The position numbers and the translations under genes were made by a program. The notes beneath the pieces are model-generated. The model made no database searches. It was not told the DNA's origin and saw only the letters and a list, made by a program, of their open reading frames with translations. Shown here piece after piece: positions 25,861 through 33,962 of a stretch of 64,000 nucleotides of DNA. Every line of letters starts with the position of its first letter. The stretch's first letter is position 1. The DNA is from Halanaerobium sp. MA284_MarDTE_T2 (GTDB lineage: Bacteria; Bacillota; Halanaerobiia; Halanaerobiales; Halanaerobiaceae). Location of the stretch: assembly GCF_003337245.1 (NCBI RefSeq), contig NZ_QPJE01000003.1, forward strand, positions 62,001 through 126,000. Reading direction: 5' to 3'.

Positions 25861-26610
25861 ATGTTTACAGTAATATACATTTTTATATTTGGACTAATAG
25901 TTGGCAGCTTTTTAAATGTTGTTATTTTTAGATTGCCTGAAGGAAAATCAATTGTAAAACCTCCATCTCACTGCCCTCACTGTAAAACTAAATTAAAAAC
26001 ATTTGATCTAATACCGGTTCTAAGTTATTTGGCAGTAGGTGGGAAGTGTCGTTATTGTGATACTAAAATATCTTTTCAATATCCTTTTGTTGAATTACTG
26101 ACTGGTTTTTTCTTTTTATTTACTTATCTAAAATTAGGTATTTCTGTTGAATTATTTATTATGTTTTTATTGATTTCTGCTCTTATTGTTATTTCTTTTA
26201 TAGACTATAAATATATGATTATTCCAAACTATATTACTTATCCAGGTATTGTGATCGGGTTTTTATCTTCAATTGTATTAGATTATATTAGTATATATGA
26301 TTCACTGCTTGGAATCTTTATTCCTTCATTATTACTTTTACTAGTTGCATTTATTTTCAAAGGTGGTATGGGAATGGGAGATGTTAAGTTAGCGGCAATG
26401 CTTGGTGCATTTTTAGGATTTGAATTTGCTTTAGCTGGTATTTTTGTAGGTTCTTTTTTAGGGTCTATTATTGGATTAACCATGATGGCTTTAGGTATGC
26501 TTGACAGAAAGAGCAGAATTCCTTTTGGTCCATTTATCTGTATTGGAACTGTAATTATTATATTTTTTGGTGATGTATTATTCGACTGGTATTTGTCCTT
26601 GTTTTTCTAG
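25861..26610 (+). CDS. pilD: Prepilin peptidase (A24 family leader peptidase/N-methyltransferase)
   Basis: 249 residues with about eight membrane segments. Residues ~36-75 hold the cytoplasmic zinc motif of two CxxC pairs (CPHCKTKLK, GKCRYCDT). Catalytic Asp residues are in FIDYKYMIIP and the GxGD motif GGMGMGDVKLAAML. It cleaves type IV prepilins at Gly-Phe and methylates the new N-terminus. Its likely substrates are the pilin genes at 41405-43247. Start ATG after AGGTGAG; stands alone, not in the pilus operon. Confidence 0.95.
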   Translation: MFTVIYIFIFGLIVGSFLNVVIFRLPEGKSIVKPPSHCPHCKTKLKTFDLIPVLSYLAVGGKCRYCDTKISFQYPFVELLTGFFFLFTYLKLGISVELFIMFLLISALIVISFIDYKYMIIPNYITYPGIVIGFLSSIVLDYISIYDSLLGIFIPSLLLLLVAFIFKGGMGMGDVKLAAMLGAFLGFEFALAGIFVGSFLGSIIGLTMMALGMLDRKSRIPFGPFICIGTVIIIFFGDVLFDWYLSLFF

Positions 26611-26623
26611 CTGATTACTGGAT

Positions 26624-26752
26624 AACGTCAAAAAAATATGATTGTTATCATAAAACACAAGTAAATAGTAGTGGATTACCTATAAACATGACAATTATGA
26701 TAACTATTAGCATTTTAAAAATTAAAAACATATTAATATCACTTGATGCTTA
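26624..26752. mobile_element. Short nonautonomous copy of the transposon at 31698-34672
   Basis: The left end (ATAACGTCAAA then AATATGAT and GTTATCATAAAA) matches the left end of the transposon at 31698. From 26689 an exact 21-nt stretch beginning TGACAATTATGATAACT matches 34621-34641 in its right end. No transposase lies between, so it looks like an internally deleted (MITE-like) derivative. The right boundary (~26752) is approximate. Confidence 0.65.
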
Positions 26753-26884
26753 AATATATGCTTTTCTTAAGAAACGGCTAAAACTGGGAATTTATTTTTT
26801 AAAAAAAATATTGAAAATTCGAGAATAAAAACACTTAAAGTCTATATTTTTAAAAAACTTAAATCAAATTAATACTCGAAGATT

Positions 26885-26932
26885 AAAAAAGCACTTAGAA
26901 CTTGAAATTAATCAGTTTTTAAGTGCTTTTTT
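26885..26932 (+). terminator. Terminator/attenuator-like hairpin upstream of PTS operon
   Basis: AAAAAAGCACTTA (26885-26897) pairs with TAAGTGCTTTTTT (26920-26932), ending in six T. A second CACTTA (about 26832) could compete for TAAGTG. No gene lies between it and pilD (stop 26610), so it ends either pilD read-through, a small RNA, or a leader. The strong promoter at 26987 lies downstream of it. Confidence 0.7.
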
Positions 26933-26986
26933 GAATAAATAAAGTCTTTTGCCACAATAGGCAGAAAAAAAGTAGTTTATTAACAA

Positions 26987-27016
26987 TTGCTATTTAAGGA
27001 ATCATGTGCGTATAAT
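26987..27016 (+). promoter_or_regulatory. Promoter of the PTS operon
   Basis: TTGCTA (26987-26992) and TATAAT (27011-27016) with an 18-bp spacer, about 47 nt before the EIIA start. Sequence just upstream shows no obvious cre site. Confidence 0.7.
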
Positions 27017-27062
27017 AGAGATAGAAGTTAAGAAAAGCAATCAATTTCGGAGGTGAAAAGAT

Positions 27063-27518
27063 TTGATTTTAGACCTTTTGAAAAAGAAAAATATTGCAGT
27101 AAATATAAAAGCAGATGATTGGGAAGAAGTGGTTGATGAAACTGGGAAACTTTTGTTAGAAGCTGATCAAATTGAAGAGAGATATATAAAAGCAATGAAG
27201 CAGTCAATAATTGATAATGGACCCTATGTAGTTATTGGAAAGGGAATTGCTCTTTTACATGCCAGACCGGAAGATGGAGTTAAAGAAAACTGTCTCAGCT
27301 TAATTACTCTGGCTGAGCCGGTAGAATTTGGAAATAAAAATAATGATCCTGTAAAAATTGCCTTTGCTTTTGGCACAGTGGATAATGAAAAACATGTCAA
27401 AACAATTTCGGAATTATCAGTGGTTTTAATGGAAGAATCTGCAGTGGACAATATTGCAGAAAAGGAAAGTGCAGAAGAAATCTTAAACTATATTGAGGAT
27501 ATTCTGGCACAGCAGTGA
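27063..27518 (+). CDS. PTS EIIA component (fructose/mannitol type, ascorbate-system partner)
   Basis: 151 residues forming one PTS_EIIA type-2 domain. The phosphorylatable His is H66 in ALLHARPEDGV. It accepts phosphate from HPr and passes it to the EIIB encoded next. TTG start with GGAGGTG upstream. The same fold recurs at the C-terminus of the PRD regulator three genes downstream, so the regulator can read the same phosphoryl flow. Confidence 0.92.
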   Translation: MILDLLKKKNIAVNIKADDWEEVVDETGKLLLEADQIEERYIKAMKQSIIDNGPYVVIGKGIALLHARPEDGVKENCLSLITLAEPVEFGNKNNDPVKIAFAFGTVDNEKHVKTISELSVVLMEESAVDNIAEKESAEEILNYIEDILAQQ

Positions 27519-27587: not shown

Positions 27588-27857
27588 ATGAGAGTACTAG
27601 CAGTATGTGGAATGGGCCTGGGAAGCAGCCTGGTTTTAAAAATGAATATAGAAAAAATTATGGAGCAGGAAGGTATCGAAGGCTCAGTTGAGGTTAAGGA
27701 TCTTTCATCTATTATGGGGGAACAGGCAGATTACATTTTTGCCAGTGAAGAAATCGGGGAAAAAATTGAGCATCCGGCAGAAGTAATAAGTGTCAAAAAT
27801 ATGACAGATAAAAAAGAGATTAAGGAAAAAGTTCTGGCAGCATACAAAAAACTTTAA
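27588..27857 (+). CDS. PTS EIIB component (lactose/ascorbate type)
   Basis: 89 residues. The phosphocysteine C7 lies in LAVCGMGLGSSLVLKM, typical for ascorbate (UlaB/SgaB)-like EIIB. Carries phosphate from EIIA to the sugar bound in EIIC. ATG start after GGAGGAG. Confidence 0.92.
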   Translation: MRVLAVCGMGLGSSLVLKMNIEKIMEQEGIEGSVEVKDLSSIMGEQADYIFASEEIGEKIEHPAEVISVKNMTDKKEIKEKVLAAYKKL

Positions 27858-27871
27858 GGAGGGAGTAGTTT

Positions 27872-29149
27872 ATGGGTTTTTTAATGTCTTTTATTAATTT
27901 TTTAGTTTATGAAGTTTTAAATCAACCGGCAACTTTAGTTGGTTTAATGGCATTTTTAGGACTGACCTTATTGAAAAAACCATTTTCTAAGATCATGTCA
28001 GGAACTTTAAAGAGTATCTTAGGTTTTGTAATCTTAGGAGCCGGTGCCAATGTATTGATAGGCAGTCTTAATAATTTAGGACCAATGATTCAAGATGCTT
28101 TCAATATTCAAGGGGTTATCCCTACAAATGAGGCAATAGTGGCTCTGGCACAGCAGACACTTGGTACTGAAACTGCTTTGATTATGGCTTTTGGTTTTAT
28201 AGCTAATTTGCTTTTTGCAAGGTTTACTCCATTAAAATATGTATTTCTTACCGGCCACCATATTTTCTTTATGGCAGCCTTATTATCAGCAGTTTTAAGT
28301 ACAGCAGGATTAACTGGAGTACCTTTAATAGCCTCTGGAGCTGTAATTTTAGGTTTTGTAATGGTGCTTTTCCCGGCTCTAGCAGAACCATTTATGAAAA
28401 AAATTACCGGTGGTACTGATGTTGCACTTGGACATTTTGGAACAACTGGCTATGTTGCAGCAGGTCTTGTTGGTAGGCTAGTTGGAGATCCAGAAGACAG
28501 CACTGAAGATATTAAAGTTCCTAAATATTTGAACTTCTTAAAAGAATCAGTTCTTTCTACTATGCTGACTATGATCATTATTTTCTTTATAGTTTCTTTA
28601 ATTGCTGGTCGTGACATTTATTCTCAGTATTCGGGTGGACAGAGTATCTTTATGTTTGCACTGATGCAGGGTATTACTTTTGCAGCAGGTGTTCATATTA
28701 TCTTAACTGGTGTAAGAATGATCATTGGTGAGATTGTTCCTGCCTTCCAGGGTATTGGTGAAAAGTTAGTTCCCGATGCAAAGCCTGCACTGGACTGCCC
28801 GATAACCTTTACCTATGCACCAAATGCGGTAATCATTGGTTTCTTATTCAGCTTTTTAGGTGGGCTTGTCAGCATGTTCTTCCTTGGACCTCTAGGTCTG
28901 GCCTTAATTATTCCCGGCATGGTTCCCCACTTCTTTACCGGAGCAACTGCGGGAGTATTTGGTAATTCCACAGGTGGTAAAAAGGGAGCAATGCTCGGTG
29001 CCTTTGTTAATGGTGTCTTAATCTCATTTTTACCAGCGCTCTTATTACCGGTCTTAGGATCACTTGGTTTTGCAAATACAACCTTTGGTGATGCCGACTT
29101 CGGAGTTGTTGGTATAATAATTGGTTATCTAGCGAAGCTGTTCGCTTAA
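27872..29149 (+). CDS. PTS EIIC permease, UlaA/SgaT family
   Basis: 425 residues with about ten to eleven hydrophobic segments. The family is the ascorbate-type EIIC (UlaA), recognisable from GHHIFFMAALLSAVL, GHFGTTGYVAAGLVGRLVG and GMVPHFFTGATAGVFGN. It transports and phosphorylates L-ascorbate or a related sugar acid or pentose-like substrate; the true substrate is unknown since no ulaD/E/F-type genes are in the window. Start ATG after AAGGAGGGAG. The regulator begins 2 nt after its stop. Confidence 0.9.
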   Translation: MGFLMSFINFLVYEVLNQPATLVGLMAFLGLTLLKKPFSKIMSGTLKSILGFVILGAGANVLIGSLNNLGPMIQDAFNIQGVIPTNEAIVALAQQTLGTETALIMAFGFIANLLFARFTPLKYVFLTGHHIFFMAALLSAVLSTAGLTGVPLIASGAVILGFVMVLFPALAEPFMKKITGGTDVALGHFGTTGYVAAGLVGRLVGDPEDSTEDIKVPKYLNFLKESVLSTMLTMIIIFFIVSLIAGRDIYSQYSGGQSIFMFALMQGITFAAGVHIILTGVRMIIGEIVPAFQGIGEKLVPDAKPALDCPITFTYAPNAVIIGFLFSFLGGLVSMFFLGPLGLALIIPGMVPHFFTGATAGVFGNSTGGKKGAMLGAFVNGVLISFLPALLLPVLGSLGFANTTFGDADFGVVGIIIGYLAKLFA

Positions 29150-29151
29150 AC

Positions 29152-31374
29152 ATGAAAAAAAGTACCAGATTATTTGAGTTATACAAATACCTAGTTGATC
29201 AGAAAGAGCCTGTATCGATACAGGCTCTTTCTGAAATTTTAAAAGTAAGCAGCAGAACAATTCGCTATGACCTGAATGAGATTGAAGATTTGATTCAAAA
29301 ATATGAATTAAAGCTGACTAAAAAACCAAATTTCGGTGTGCTTTTAGAAGGAGAAGCAGAAGAGCAGTTTAAAGTTTTTGCAGAGTTTAATGATTTTTAC
29401 AACAGCCGTCATTTTCGTTCTGCCAAAATGCGTAAATATTTAATTTTGTATAGATTATTTCAAAAGAAAGAACCAATTTTGATTTTTGAACTGGCAGATC
29501 TTTTAGATGTCAGTTCAGCAACGGTCAGCAAGGATTTAGATCAAGTAGAAAAGTGGCTTAATAGAAGAGATCTTGCCTTAATTAGGCGAAGAAATTATGG
29601 AGTACAAATTGAAGGTGCAGAAATTGATATCAGACATGCAATGAAAAGTCTTTTAAATGAATCTTACGAGGCAGGTAATATGATTGAGCTTTTAAATAAG
29701 AGTAATAAAAAAGTGAATTTTAAAAGTCGTCTGGAACATGGTTATAATAAAGAAATTAAAAACCTTTTGGGAGAACTCAACTTAAAAGAAATTGAGTCAG
29801 TTGTAAAAGTGGCAGAAAAAGAGCTTGGTATTCGCTTTACTGATAGTGCTTTTACCGGTCTGATTATTCATATTGCTTTTGCTATTTCAAGACTGCTGGC
29901 AGACCAAGATATAAAAATTGAAACTGAAAGATTAAAGATTATTAAAAAGAAAAAAGAATTTAAGACTGCTGAAAAAATATCTCTTTTACTGGAGGAAAAA
30001 TTTTCTGTTGCAATTCCAGAAGATGAAATTGGATTTATTACTATCCATTTGCTGGGTGCAAAAATGAGAGAAGGAAAGGCTGACAGTGAGTTAAGCGAAA
30101 ATAATCTTGAATACTTAGTAAAAGAAATGATTAAAGTTGTAGAAAAATATTTTTCTACCAGTTTTGCTGGAGATCAGAAACTATATTCAGGTCTTCTTGT
30201 CCACCTGCAGGCAATTGTCAACCGGATCATTTTTAATCTACCAATTCAAAATCCGCTGCTGGAAGATATTAAAGAAAAATACAGCGAGGTTTTTAAGGCT
30301 TCAAAACTGGCAGCGAGGCTGATTCAGAGTGAATTTTATGTTGAAATTAGTGAGGACGAGGTTGGTTATCTAACCATACATTTTGGGGCTGCTCTGGAGA
30401 GAATTAATTTTCAGAAAAAGACAAAGGCAAAGGTGGCAATTGTCTGCTCCAGTGGTGTTGGAACAACCAATCTATTAGAAGTTCGCCTTAAAAATGAGTT
30501 TAAAGCAATTGAAATAATTGACAGCCTATCCAGTCTGGATTTGGAGGACAATGATATTTTAAAAGAAATAGATTTTGTGATTTCTACTATTCCTCTGAGC
30601 CTGGAAGAGATTGATGTGATTAAGGTTAATCCATTTTTAGAGGAAAATGATATTGAAAAAATTAAAGCCTATCTTAAGCAGAGAAAAATGGAATATGGAA
30701 TTTTTTCAGAAGCAAAAAATAAAACCAGGGCAGATAAAATGCCTTTAAATTCTGAGAATATGCTTGCAAAAAATCATAAGATAAAGTCGGAAGAAATTAT
30801 AGATTTACTAAGTCCATTTTTAGACCAGGAGCAGATATCTGCGGCCTTGGAGAAATTAAAGGCATATTTTGCTTCAGAAAAAAGGAGTAAGCAGGCTGAA
30901 AGTCAAGTTGAAAACCAGAAAAAGAATCTTTTAACTCTGCTTAAAAGAGATCAGATTAAAATAATTAAAACTACAGCAGATTGGAAAAAGGCAATTGAGG
31001 AAGCCGGTCGGCTGCTTTTAGACAAAGAGTTCATTAAAGCTCGTTATATTAAAAAAATGATTAGAATTGTAGAAGATAAGGGGCCCTATATTGCAATTGC
31101 TCCCGAAATCTGTCTGGCCCACGCTGGAATAGAAGATGGTGTCAAAGAGTCAGCGATTAGTCTGCTGGTAATTAAAAAAGGAATTAAACTCGGCCATCAA
31201 TTTGACCCAATAAAATTTATTTTTGTGCTGGCACCAATAGATAAAAAATCTCATATGCCGGCACTGACAGATATTATGGAATTTGCAAACAACAGAAAAT
31301 TAATGGATGATCTTTTAGCGGCAGAATCTGAGGGTGCTGCATATAAACTGCTGCAGAATAATTTTAATAAATAA
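29152..31374 (+). CDS. PRD-containing transcriptional activator with EIIB-like and EIIA domains
   Basis: 740 residues. Order: HTH_11 (SIQALSEILKVSSRTIRYDLNEI, ~24-46), a second HTH/Mga-like domain (LDVSSATVSKDLDQVEKW, ~118-136), PRD1 (around GLIIHIAFAISRLL, ~240), PRD2 (LLVHLQAIVNRI, ~345), an EIIB-like domain (VAIVCSSGVGTTN, ~428) and a C-terminal EIIA domain (CLAHAGIEDGV, ~650). This is the MtlR/LicR-type layout in which HPr and EII phosphorylation of the PRDs sets activity. No good Shine-Dalgarno precedes ATG 29152, so translation is probably coupled to EIIC. A 36-bp palindrome lies in its 5' coding region. Confidence 0.92.
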   Translation: MKKSTRLFELYKYLVDQKEPVSIQALSEILKVSSRTIRYDLNEIEDLIQKYELKLTKKPNFGVLLEGEAEEQFKVFAEFNDFYNSRHFRSAKMRKYLILYRLFQKKEPILIFELADLLDVSSATVSKDLDQVEKWLNRRDLALIRRRNYGVQIEGAEIDIRHAMKSLLNESYEAGNMIELLNKSNKKVNFKSRLEHGYNKEIKNLLGELNLKEIESVVKVAEKELGIRFTDSAFTGLIIHIAFAISRLLADQDIKIETERLKIIKKKKEFKTAEKISLLLEEKFSVAIPEDEIGFITIHLLGAKMREGKADSELSENNLEYLVKEMIKVVEKYFSTSFAGDQKLYSGLLVHLQAIVNRIIFNLPIQNPLLEDIKEKYSEVFKASKLAARLIQSEFYVEISEDEVGYLTIHFGAALERINFQKKTKAKVAIVCSSGVGTTNLLEVRLKNEFKAIEIIDSLSSLDLEDNDILKEIDFVISTIPLSLEEIDVIKVNPFLEENDIEKIKAYLKQRKMEYGIFSEAKNKTRADKMPLNSENMLAKNHKIKSEEIIDLLSPFLDQEQISAALEKLKAYFASEKRSKQAESQVENQKKNLLTLLKRDQIKIIKTTADWKKAIEEAGRLLLDKEFIKARYIKKMIRIVEDKGPYIAIAPEICLAHAGIEDGVKESAISLLVIKKGIKLGHQFDPIKFIFVLAPIDKKSHMPALTDIMEFANNRKLMDDLLAAESEGAAYKLLQNNFNK
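29199..29234. repeat. Perfect 36-bp palindrome inside the PRD regulator gene
   Basis: The sequence from TCAGAAAGAGCCTGTATC (29199-29216) is exactly repeated as its reverse complement (29217-29234), with no loop bases. It covers codons for about residues 16-28. It may be an RNA processing or attenuation hairpin, or a DNA operator. Confidence 0.9.
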
Positions 31375-31896: not shown

Positions 31897-32763
31897 TTAC
31901 TTATCAGTTTTGTTGATCCACCTGATAAGTTGAGCCCAGGATTCAATGGGCTGACCTCTTGAATCTTCAACTACTAGAGGAGCTTTGTTATCAAAAGAGC
32001 TATGAGGTTTTATATAGTTAAAATAAAGCTGATATAAAGTTATATGAGCAAGAGCACCATCAAAGGAACTAAAGCTTTTATGACGCTTGTAATGAGCTTT
32101 ATAGGTGCCAAAGAAACGCTCAATGATGTTTTTATAGGGTCTGTAAACTTCATCTGAATTATCATCATCAGTAAAAAGTCCTTTAACCTGTCTGTGATCT
32201 ACATCGGTCTTTAAAAAGGCCTTTGCAGCATGGACAGCAGCTCTATAGATTGGTGCCATATCAGAAACAAGAACAAAATTCTGACCCTGATATTGGTCAA
32301 TAATCCTTTTGAGGATGGTGATTGCACCTTTAGCATCTCGATGTTTTGAGAGATGCTGAGCAATGATACAGCCATTTTTACCATCAATGGCAGTAAAGAG
32401 ATAATGCCAGCTGCCTTTGATTTTGATATATGTTTCGTCAACAGCAACAATACCAGATAAAGGCAGATCAAGGTCATTAATTTTAGGACCCAGTCTGTAG
32501 GCTAAAGAGACAGTCCAGTTCTGGATAGTCTGAGCTGATGGTGAAACATTATAGGCCAGTTTAAGCGCCCTTTTAGTCTGCCTTAAAGAAAGACCAAGAC
32601 CGACATAAAAGTCCATAGCTTTGGAGATTATGAATTGCCCATACTGGGAATAGTCAAGATTAACTGGTTCTTTATCAGGTCTTGAAACTTCAAGGTTTTC
32701 AACATCAAAATCATAAGCTCTATAGCGATATCTTTTGTGTTCGTTTTTCCATTTAGAACAGTC
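31897..32763 (-). pseudogene. Transposase, C-terminal part (IS6-like DDE domain), cut by IS3 insertion
   Basis: This is the 3' portion of a gene whose 5' portion lies at 34018-34515. Joining GAC (34018-34020) to TGT (32760-32758) gives one open frame of 453 residues, of which this part supplies 287. DDE catalytic residues appear in IVAVDETYIKIKGSW, VLVSDMAPIYRA and NIIERFFGTYKAHYK, typical of the IS6/IS240-like domain. As it stands, an internal ATG (32616) could give a 239-residue fragment lacking the zinc ribbons, probably inactive. Confidence 0.85.
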
Positions 32764-32781
32764 TGAGCTTCCCCCATTAAA

Positions 32782-33615
32782 TTAGACACATAGTTTAGAT
32801 AGTTTTCTCTCGTTTTCGTAGTCTTCTGGACTTTTATAATTTAACGTCGAATGCATTCTGATTCTGTTGTAATAAACAGCGATATATTCAAAAATATCCT
32901 GTCTTGCCTGTTTTCTTGTTTTGTAATCTTTTTGATAAATTAATTCTGTTTTTATGGTGGAAAAGAAACTTTCAGCTACTGCATTATCCCAGCAGTCTCC
33001 TTTGCGGCTCATTGAGGACCTCATACCACTTTTCCATAGTTCTTTTTGAAAATCATGACTTGCATATTGGCTGCCTCTATCAGAATGAAAGATCAAACCT
33101 TTTTTAGGATTTCTATTTTTAATTCCCATGTTAAGAGCATCTATAACAAGCTTCCTGGTCATTCTTTTATTAATCGACCAGCCAACTACTTTTCGGGAAT
33201 AAAGATCTATTACAACAGCCAGGTAAAGCCAGCCTTCGGCTGTGGGTATATATGTAATATCTGAAACCCAAACTTTGTTAGGCTTAGATATATCAAAATT
33301 TCTGTTAAGCAAATTTTCTTTTAGGGGCAGGTTGTGATTTGAATCAGTTGTTTTTTTGAATTTCTTTTTCTGAACTGCTTTAAGACCCATTACTTGCATA
33401 AGTCTCACAACTCTTTTTATATTACAAGTGTGGCCTTCTTTCAACAGTTGACGGTGTATTCTAGGGCTTCCATAGCGGCCTTTATGCTGCCAGTATATTT
33501 TAGCTATTTCTAGTTTTAGTTTCTCATTTTCAAGTTCTCTCTGACTGGGTTCTCTATCCAGCCAATCATAGAAAGTAGACCGGGAAACTTCTAATACCTG
33601 GCACATTTTCGTCAC
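32782..33615 (-). CDS. IS3-family transposase OrfB (DDE integrase)
   Basis: 277 residues from the internal ATG. HTH_21 segment ([19 protein letters not shown]) followed by an rve integrase core with [11 protein letters not shown] (first D), [13 protein letters not shown] (second D) and [16 protein letters not shown] (E). The same frame continues upstream ([16 protein letters not shown]) to a run of six A at 33668-33663 within the end of orfA, so the active product is probably an OrfAB fusion made by -1 frameshifting there, as in other IS3 elements. Confidence 0.95.
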
Positions 33616-33653
33616 AGGAAATTGATTTCTGTGATCCCGGATAAAACCATAGA

Positions 33654-33962
33654 TTACGTCGGTTTTTTCGAAAAGATGCCCACTGCTTTTTTTAATATAT
33701 CACGTTCTAATTTAGTTTCTCTAAGTTCATCTTCAAGGTCTTTTATTTTTTGTTGTTCAGGTGTTAATTTTTGTTTTCCATTACCAGGAAAAGCATGTTT
33801 TCCTTTGTTTCTATATTCTCTGCGCCAGCGGGTTAAATTACTGTAATTTATCCCAAGATCATCAGCAATTTCTTTTACTGTCTTATTTGAATTTATACTG
33901 AGTTCAACAGCATCTTTTTTGAATTCTTCAGTGTAACTTCTTCTTTTTCCCATTTTGGGCAC
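33654..33962 (-). CDS. IS3-family transposase OrfA (HTH protein)
   Basis: 102 residues: HTH_Tnp_1 domain ([14 protein letters not shown] ... [19 protein letters not shown]) followed by a leucine-zipper-like coiled coil ([19 protein letters not shown]). It binds the IS ends and, fused to OrfB by frameshift at the six-A run, forms the transposase. AGGAGGTG precedes the ATG. Confidence 0.93.

Follow-up and report, generated by a model that had tools for sequence, protein, structure and literature searches.

A conserved coding-region hairpin, perfectly palindromic in one Halanaerobium genome, at the junction of a PTS permease gene and its PRD regulator gene

The operon and the palindrome

The locus lies in a window of 64 kb (the whole stretch of Halanaerobium DNA analysed here, in which all positions are counted) and comprises EIIA, EIIB and EIIC-GAT genes, a set which we take to be an ascorbate-type phosphotransferase system (PTS), followed by a regulator with the domain order HTH-PRD-PRD-EIIB-EIIA (Table 1) and, downstream of it, by an HPr-like ORF named from its sequence. 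In H. congolense a transketolase gene also lies downstream of the regulator, and there (genome L052) it directly follows HPr; in the present genome transposase-like ORFs on the minus strand (31897-33962) stand between the HPr-like gene and transketolase, so that the operon looks interrupted. The hexamers in front of EIIA are to be read as a consensus match only, since 19 sites of the type TTGCTA-18-TATAAT were found against 19.9 expected in shuffles. EIIA, EIIB and EIIC have GGAGG-type sites, whereas no Shine-Dalgarno sequence is visible at the start of the regulator, whose ATG follows the EIIC stop codon (TAA, 29147-29149) after 2 nt, and after 1 nt in relatives. Just before this stop and the regulator ATG there is a small inverted repeat, GCGAA-GCTG-TTCGC (29133-29146), which is largely forced by the residues A-K-x-F-A and whose third-position pair is G-C, G-U or A-U among relatives.

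Table 1. Features of the locus (positions in the 64-kb window)
Feature	Position	Strand	Remarks
Conserved promoter-upstream block TTTGCCACAAT	26948..26958	+	Candidate regulator operator, unlike the palindrome
Promoter-like hexamers TTGCTA-18-TATAAT before EIIA	26987..27016	+	Consensus match only
EIIA gene	27063..27518	+	TTG start after GGAGGTG
EIIB gene	27588..27857	+	
EIIC-GAT permease of PTS	27872..29149	+	Stop 2 nt before regulator ATG
Regulator gene, 740 aa	29152..31374	+	HTH_11, Mga-type HTH, two PRD domains, PTS_IIB, PTS_EIIA_2
Perfect palindrome, 36 bp	29199..29234	+	mRNA form: 16-bp stem, 4-nt loop, -26.6 kcal/mol
Left outer arm, 13 nt	29199..29211	+	Conserved as TCAGAARGRGCCT
Right outer arm, 13 nt	29222..29234	+	Conserved as AGGYTCTTTCTGA

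An earlier note on this DNA had pointed to a perfect 36-bp palindrome without loop in the early codons of the regulator, about 50 nt past a coupled start codon without Shine-Dalgarno sequence, and had judged it unlikely to be due to chance; all of this was borne out. The palindrome is an exact inverted repeat of 18 + 18 bp, without any loop at the DNA level, and corresponds to nucleotides 48-83 of the regulator ORF (counted from the ATG at 29152). The next longest perfect palindrome of the window has 10-bp arms, and the 2.47-Mb genome as a whole would, on base composition, be expected to have about 0.00015 palindromes like the present one: the palindrome is real and far above chance. Folded as RNA, the 54 nt that surround it rank third in stability among all segments of this length on both strands, neighbours being merged. 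A second copy of its 24-bp core was not found in the genome with up to 3 mismatches allowed, and a plasmid search gave no match. Insertion of a palindromic repeat element was ruled out, the gene alignment being ungapped at the palindrome and the sequence being single copy in the genome; an element known to Rfam was likewise ruled out, the only matches being to Thr_leader and below threshold (28.6 and 27.8 bits against a cut-off of 55). Sites of the LexA-like CTG-N10-CAG type and CcpA cre sites were considered and dropped, their spacing or sequence apparently being a misfit. Among the matches listed in a literature search for the system in Halanaerobium, none names this genus.

Conservation of the stem beyond protein and codon constraints

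Conservation was followed in a set of 61 genomes, 14 of them from the family, in which eight family orthologues with at least 52% protein identity were present, the own gene included. The stem folds in seven of the eight, with energies of -19.8 to -26.6 kcal/mol and dinucleotide-shuffle z values of -4.1 to -8.8; its conserved length as RNA is 13-16 bp, and one of its bearers (L009) has 56% protein identity. L005 and L006 are nearly identical, which leaves six distinct stem-bearing sequences, and all seven are related. A degenerate hairpin pattern, composed after the seven had been seen, matches exactly these seven genomes of the 61, once each (reverse-strand readings of the same place aside). 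The eighth orthologue, L010, shares the EIIC-regulator junction at 53% identity and lacks the hairpin on folding; nine of the 13 outer pairs still form there in the same register, as many as are reached by 1891 of 100000 synonymous draws. Nor was the hairpin found in the own paralogue or in nine regulators at greater distance (z of -1.8 to +1.4). The earlier note had made its reading depend in part on preservation of the palindrome in close relatives: perfect symmetry is confined to the own genome, but the relatives retain the hairpin, without the exact dyad.

As the stem lies within codons, the contribution of coding was assessed by synonymous redraw, in which codons were drawn from the own usage of each gene and then folded. 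In the seven stem-bearing orthologues only 0, 2, 0, 0, 3, 0 and 0 draws per 1000 fold as well as the natural sequence, against 248 per 1000 in L010. When pairing is read in the register of the own genome and G-U is counted, the outer 13 pairs all form in 7/7; in L009, where synonymous sites match the own gene in only 55% of the residues shared, 17 of 100000 synonymous draws reach 13/13 in that register. All nine third codon positions in the outer arms are paired in each of the seven. Among the codon-corrected folds of the regulator gene the hairpin takes first place in five of the seven (G000, L006, L007, L008 and L009); it comes second in L005 and third in L004, being outscored there by windows near nucleotide 2062-2071 of the gene. 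A scan of synonymous conservation, from which the near-copy L006 and L010 were omitted, ranks the region 2 of 697 with a window of 14 codons and 54 of 696 with one of 10 codons. Codon choice and protein constraint alone do not explain the stem, which is preserved beyond both at the EIIC-regulator junction in one clade of the family.

A second codon-corrected RNA structure was observed near the 3' end of the regulator gene, around nucleotide 2062-2071, in the own gene of the window and in L004, L005 and L006 (z about -3.5 to -4).

RNA hairpin, operator site and the origin of the symmetry

Across the outer 13 pairs of the seven orthologues every non-Watson-Crick pair is G-U, while the inner five pairs drift. 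The register is such that each third codon position stands opposite a second position of the other arm; compensatory synonymous pairs are therefore impossible and only wobble changes are available. No true covariation was found among the seven; L010 is the sole source of the two both-sided changes given by RNAalifold, which do not count as evidence. Pairing of the third positions, changes confined to G-U and a drifting loop together indicate a selected coding-region RNA hairpin rather than a DNA operator. The earlier note had also considered the palindrome as a DNA site for a dimeric regulator in autoregulation. For an operator of this sort, bound by the PRD regulator or another dimeric factor, speak the exact dyad of the own genome and the fully symmetrical outer arms of L009, yet we take it to be highly improbable, as six of the seven orthologues that keep the hairpin have lost perfect symmetry, with changes of the outer 13-bp stem that are all G-U-compatible, and the genome is without a second copy within 3 mismatches. 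Operators of PRD regulators are expected as the same site at the regulated promoter, and the palindrome has no such counterpart: the best 18-mer match of the arms in 26501-27100 has 6 mismatches and is located in the preceding ORF. The promoter has instead another conserved block, TTTGCCACAAT, which precedes the -35 hexamer of the EII operon and is conserved in four aligned rows, two of them (L053 and L054) near-identical. The reverse complement of this block, ATTGTGGCAAA, is similar, on comparison by eye, to ATATTGTGCTCAAATA, a predicted UlaR2 site (PMC4324149), and the block may be the operator of the regulator.

As reconstructed, the common ancestor of the own gene and that of H. congolense had 16 of 18 Watson-Crick pairs. 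Two changes completed the dyad in the own genome, a synonymous T to G at 29217 and, at 29225, a T to C that replaces Val by Ala; the probability that two random substitutions in this ancestor give perfect symmetry is about 0.0007. Position 29225 is also C in L009, so that this base may be retained or parallel. The final two changes look like one template-switch event, in which a single switch between the arms (quasi-palindrome correction) would have altered 29217 and 29225 together; the last step may alternatively reflect selection that favoured a more stable stem, or 29225 may already have been C in the ancestor. Template switching is reported to generate hairpins and preserve them (PMC8794818) and, within coding DNA, to homogenise the arms of repeats (PMC8604942). 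The present case resembles those mutations in that two apparently linked changes perfect an imperfect inverted repeat, and differs in scope, the studies covering RNA genes and yeast coding DNA and ours one candidate event in one bacterial genome. In a 355-nt stretch, eight of the 14 differences from H. congolense lie within the 46 nt of 29199-29244 (scan p 0.004, for a region picked after being seen). Transfer of one local tract between species as sole cause was rejected: L009 shares the arms, and its flanks diverge at once.

The regulator stretches 29245-29430 and about 31060-31360 are identical or nearly so to those of H. congolense, which carries a different genus handle, while the gene is otherwise diverged. 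These near-identical stretches suggest recombination between lineages.

Possible roles of the hairpin

Several readings of the hairpin other than the one that we prefer have to be weighed. It could be a partial transcription terminator or attenuator of regulator expression, to which its layout, A-rich, GC-rich and T-rich in turn (AAAGAGCC...GGCTCTTT) as in a bidirectional terminator, lends some appeal, as do the weak sub-cut-off matches to Thr_leader, a terminator-bearing leader (28.6 and 27.8 against 55 bits). An intrinsic terminator has a GC-rich stem with a U-tract at once after it, an arrangement that is not seen here: in a tail-scoring scheme which we take to be that of TransTermHP, the tail past the core, CTTTCTGAAATTTTA, reaches -2.98, whereas three hairpins of the window with a clear U-tract score -4.8 to -5.3 and one that is shorter scores -3.6. 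Since, in addition, a terminator scan makes no call at the hairpin and an HPr-like gene (in H. congolense also transketolase) lies further downstream, termination seems rather improbable. The hairpin could also tune translation of the regulator, by slowing early elongation or affecting re-initiation after EIIC, which would suit a start codon placed 2 nt (1 nt in relatives) past the EIIC stop without Shine-Dalgarno sequence, with the hairpin beginning 47 nt past the first base of the ATG; it lies, however, outside the initiation footprint, and elongating ribosomes are generally known to melt such stems, which makes this role quite unlikely. Finally, the inverted repeat may serve no RNA function and be maintained non-adaptively, by protein constraint on second positions together with homogenisation by template switching. 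The completion of symmetry by both own-genome changes, the clustering of differences from H. congolense in 29199-29244 and the reported activity of template switching on hairpins (PMC8794818) and on the arms of coding repeats (PMC8604942) are in line with this proposal. Un-homogenised G-U pairs nevertheless persist in five of the seven orthologues, and in L008 and L009 the inner part decays while the outer stem does not; we regard it as decidedly unlikely.

The role most likely for the hairpin is that of setting the amount of regulator relative to transporter, and the best explanation of how, to which we give an even chance, is that it blocks 3'-5' decay from within the ORF and so stabilises the EII mRNA relative to that of the regulator. 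After a cut in the regulator cistron, or when its translation is poor, the hairpin would halt 3'-5' exonucleases; the upstream EIIABC mRNA would then survive while the regulator (and HPr) part decays, and a high transporter-to-regulator ratio would result despite one coupled transcript. The hairpin is taken as a decay barrier because the points that can be examined in sequence fit the description from E. coli, in which a stable hairpin stands just before the end in 26 of the 34 upstream genes that are stabilised, 17 of these 26 protective 3' hairpins are embedded in the ORF that follows, at a mean distance of 107 +/- 56 nt from its start, and the protective hairpins are without U-tract and have conserved wobble positions over them (PMC5927463). 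Here too a stable hairpin (-26.6 kcal/mol, nucleotides 48-83) lies inside the downstream ORF, its stem starting 47 nt in; the U-tract of an intrinsic terminator is absent; and both structure and wobble positions are conserved (7/8 orthologues, 9/9 third positions). The two cases are thus alike in stability, lack of U-tract, placement in early downstream codons and conservation of synonymous positions, and differ in that ours comes from another phylum, is a palindrome of exact symmetry, has its stem at 47 nt into the ORF against the mean of 107 +/- 56 nt given for E. coli, and has a decay effect which we infer (PMC5927463). The earlier note had proposed that a hairpin here separates expression of regulator and EII genes; the stem is indeed kept through constrained codons in seven of eight orthologues, and the separation itself would be the most plausible consequence.

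Related arrangements are known from other bacteria. In Clostridium cellulolyticum, a Gram-positive-type anaerobe, 3'-terminal stem-loops track transcript abundance, and as here a stem-loop stands between operon parts of unequal need; the stem-loops examined there are tied to mapped intergenic processing sites, whereas the present hairpin is known from sequence (PMC4423207). The hairpin of the Bacillus subtilis cggR-gapA operon likewise shifts the ratio of a regulator and its metabolic partner within an operon, but it stabilises the downstream product after RNase Y cleavage and has the regulator upstream, while in our case the regulator is downstream (PMC11780869).

The hairpin belongs to a known kind, that of ORF-embedded hairpins; its perfect symmetry is striking yet genome-specific, and its function is what we infer from these comparisons. 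In a more far-reaching reading, which we consider unlikely, one sequence would do three jobs: it would encode a portion of the regulator's DNA-binding domain, form a selected barrier to RNA decay by which the ratio of transporter to regulator is fixed, and renew its own symmetry by template switching, the last because each third codon position stands across from a second position of the other arm that is under protein constraint. Were this so, the codon register would make a coding hairpin mutationally self-repairing, and in any event the pairing of third against second positions offers a testable case for the maintenance of coding hairpins. If the decay barrier is real, ORF-embedded protective hairpins would extend from enterobacteria to Halanaerobiales, and the operon would be a strong natural case in which expression of one gene is set by the synonymous codons of the regulator gene that follows it.
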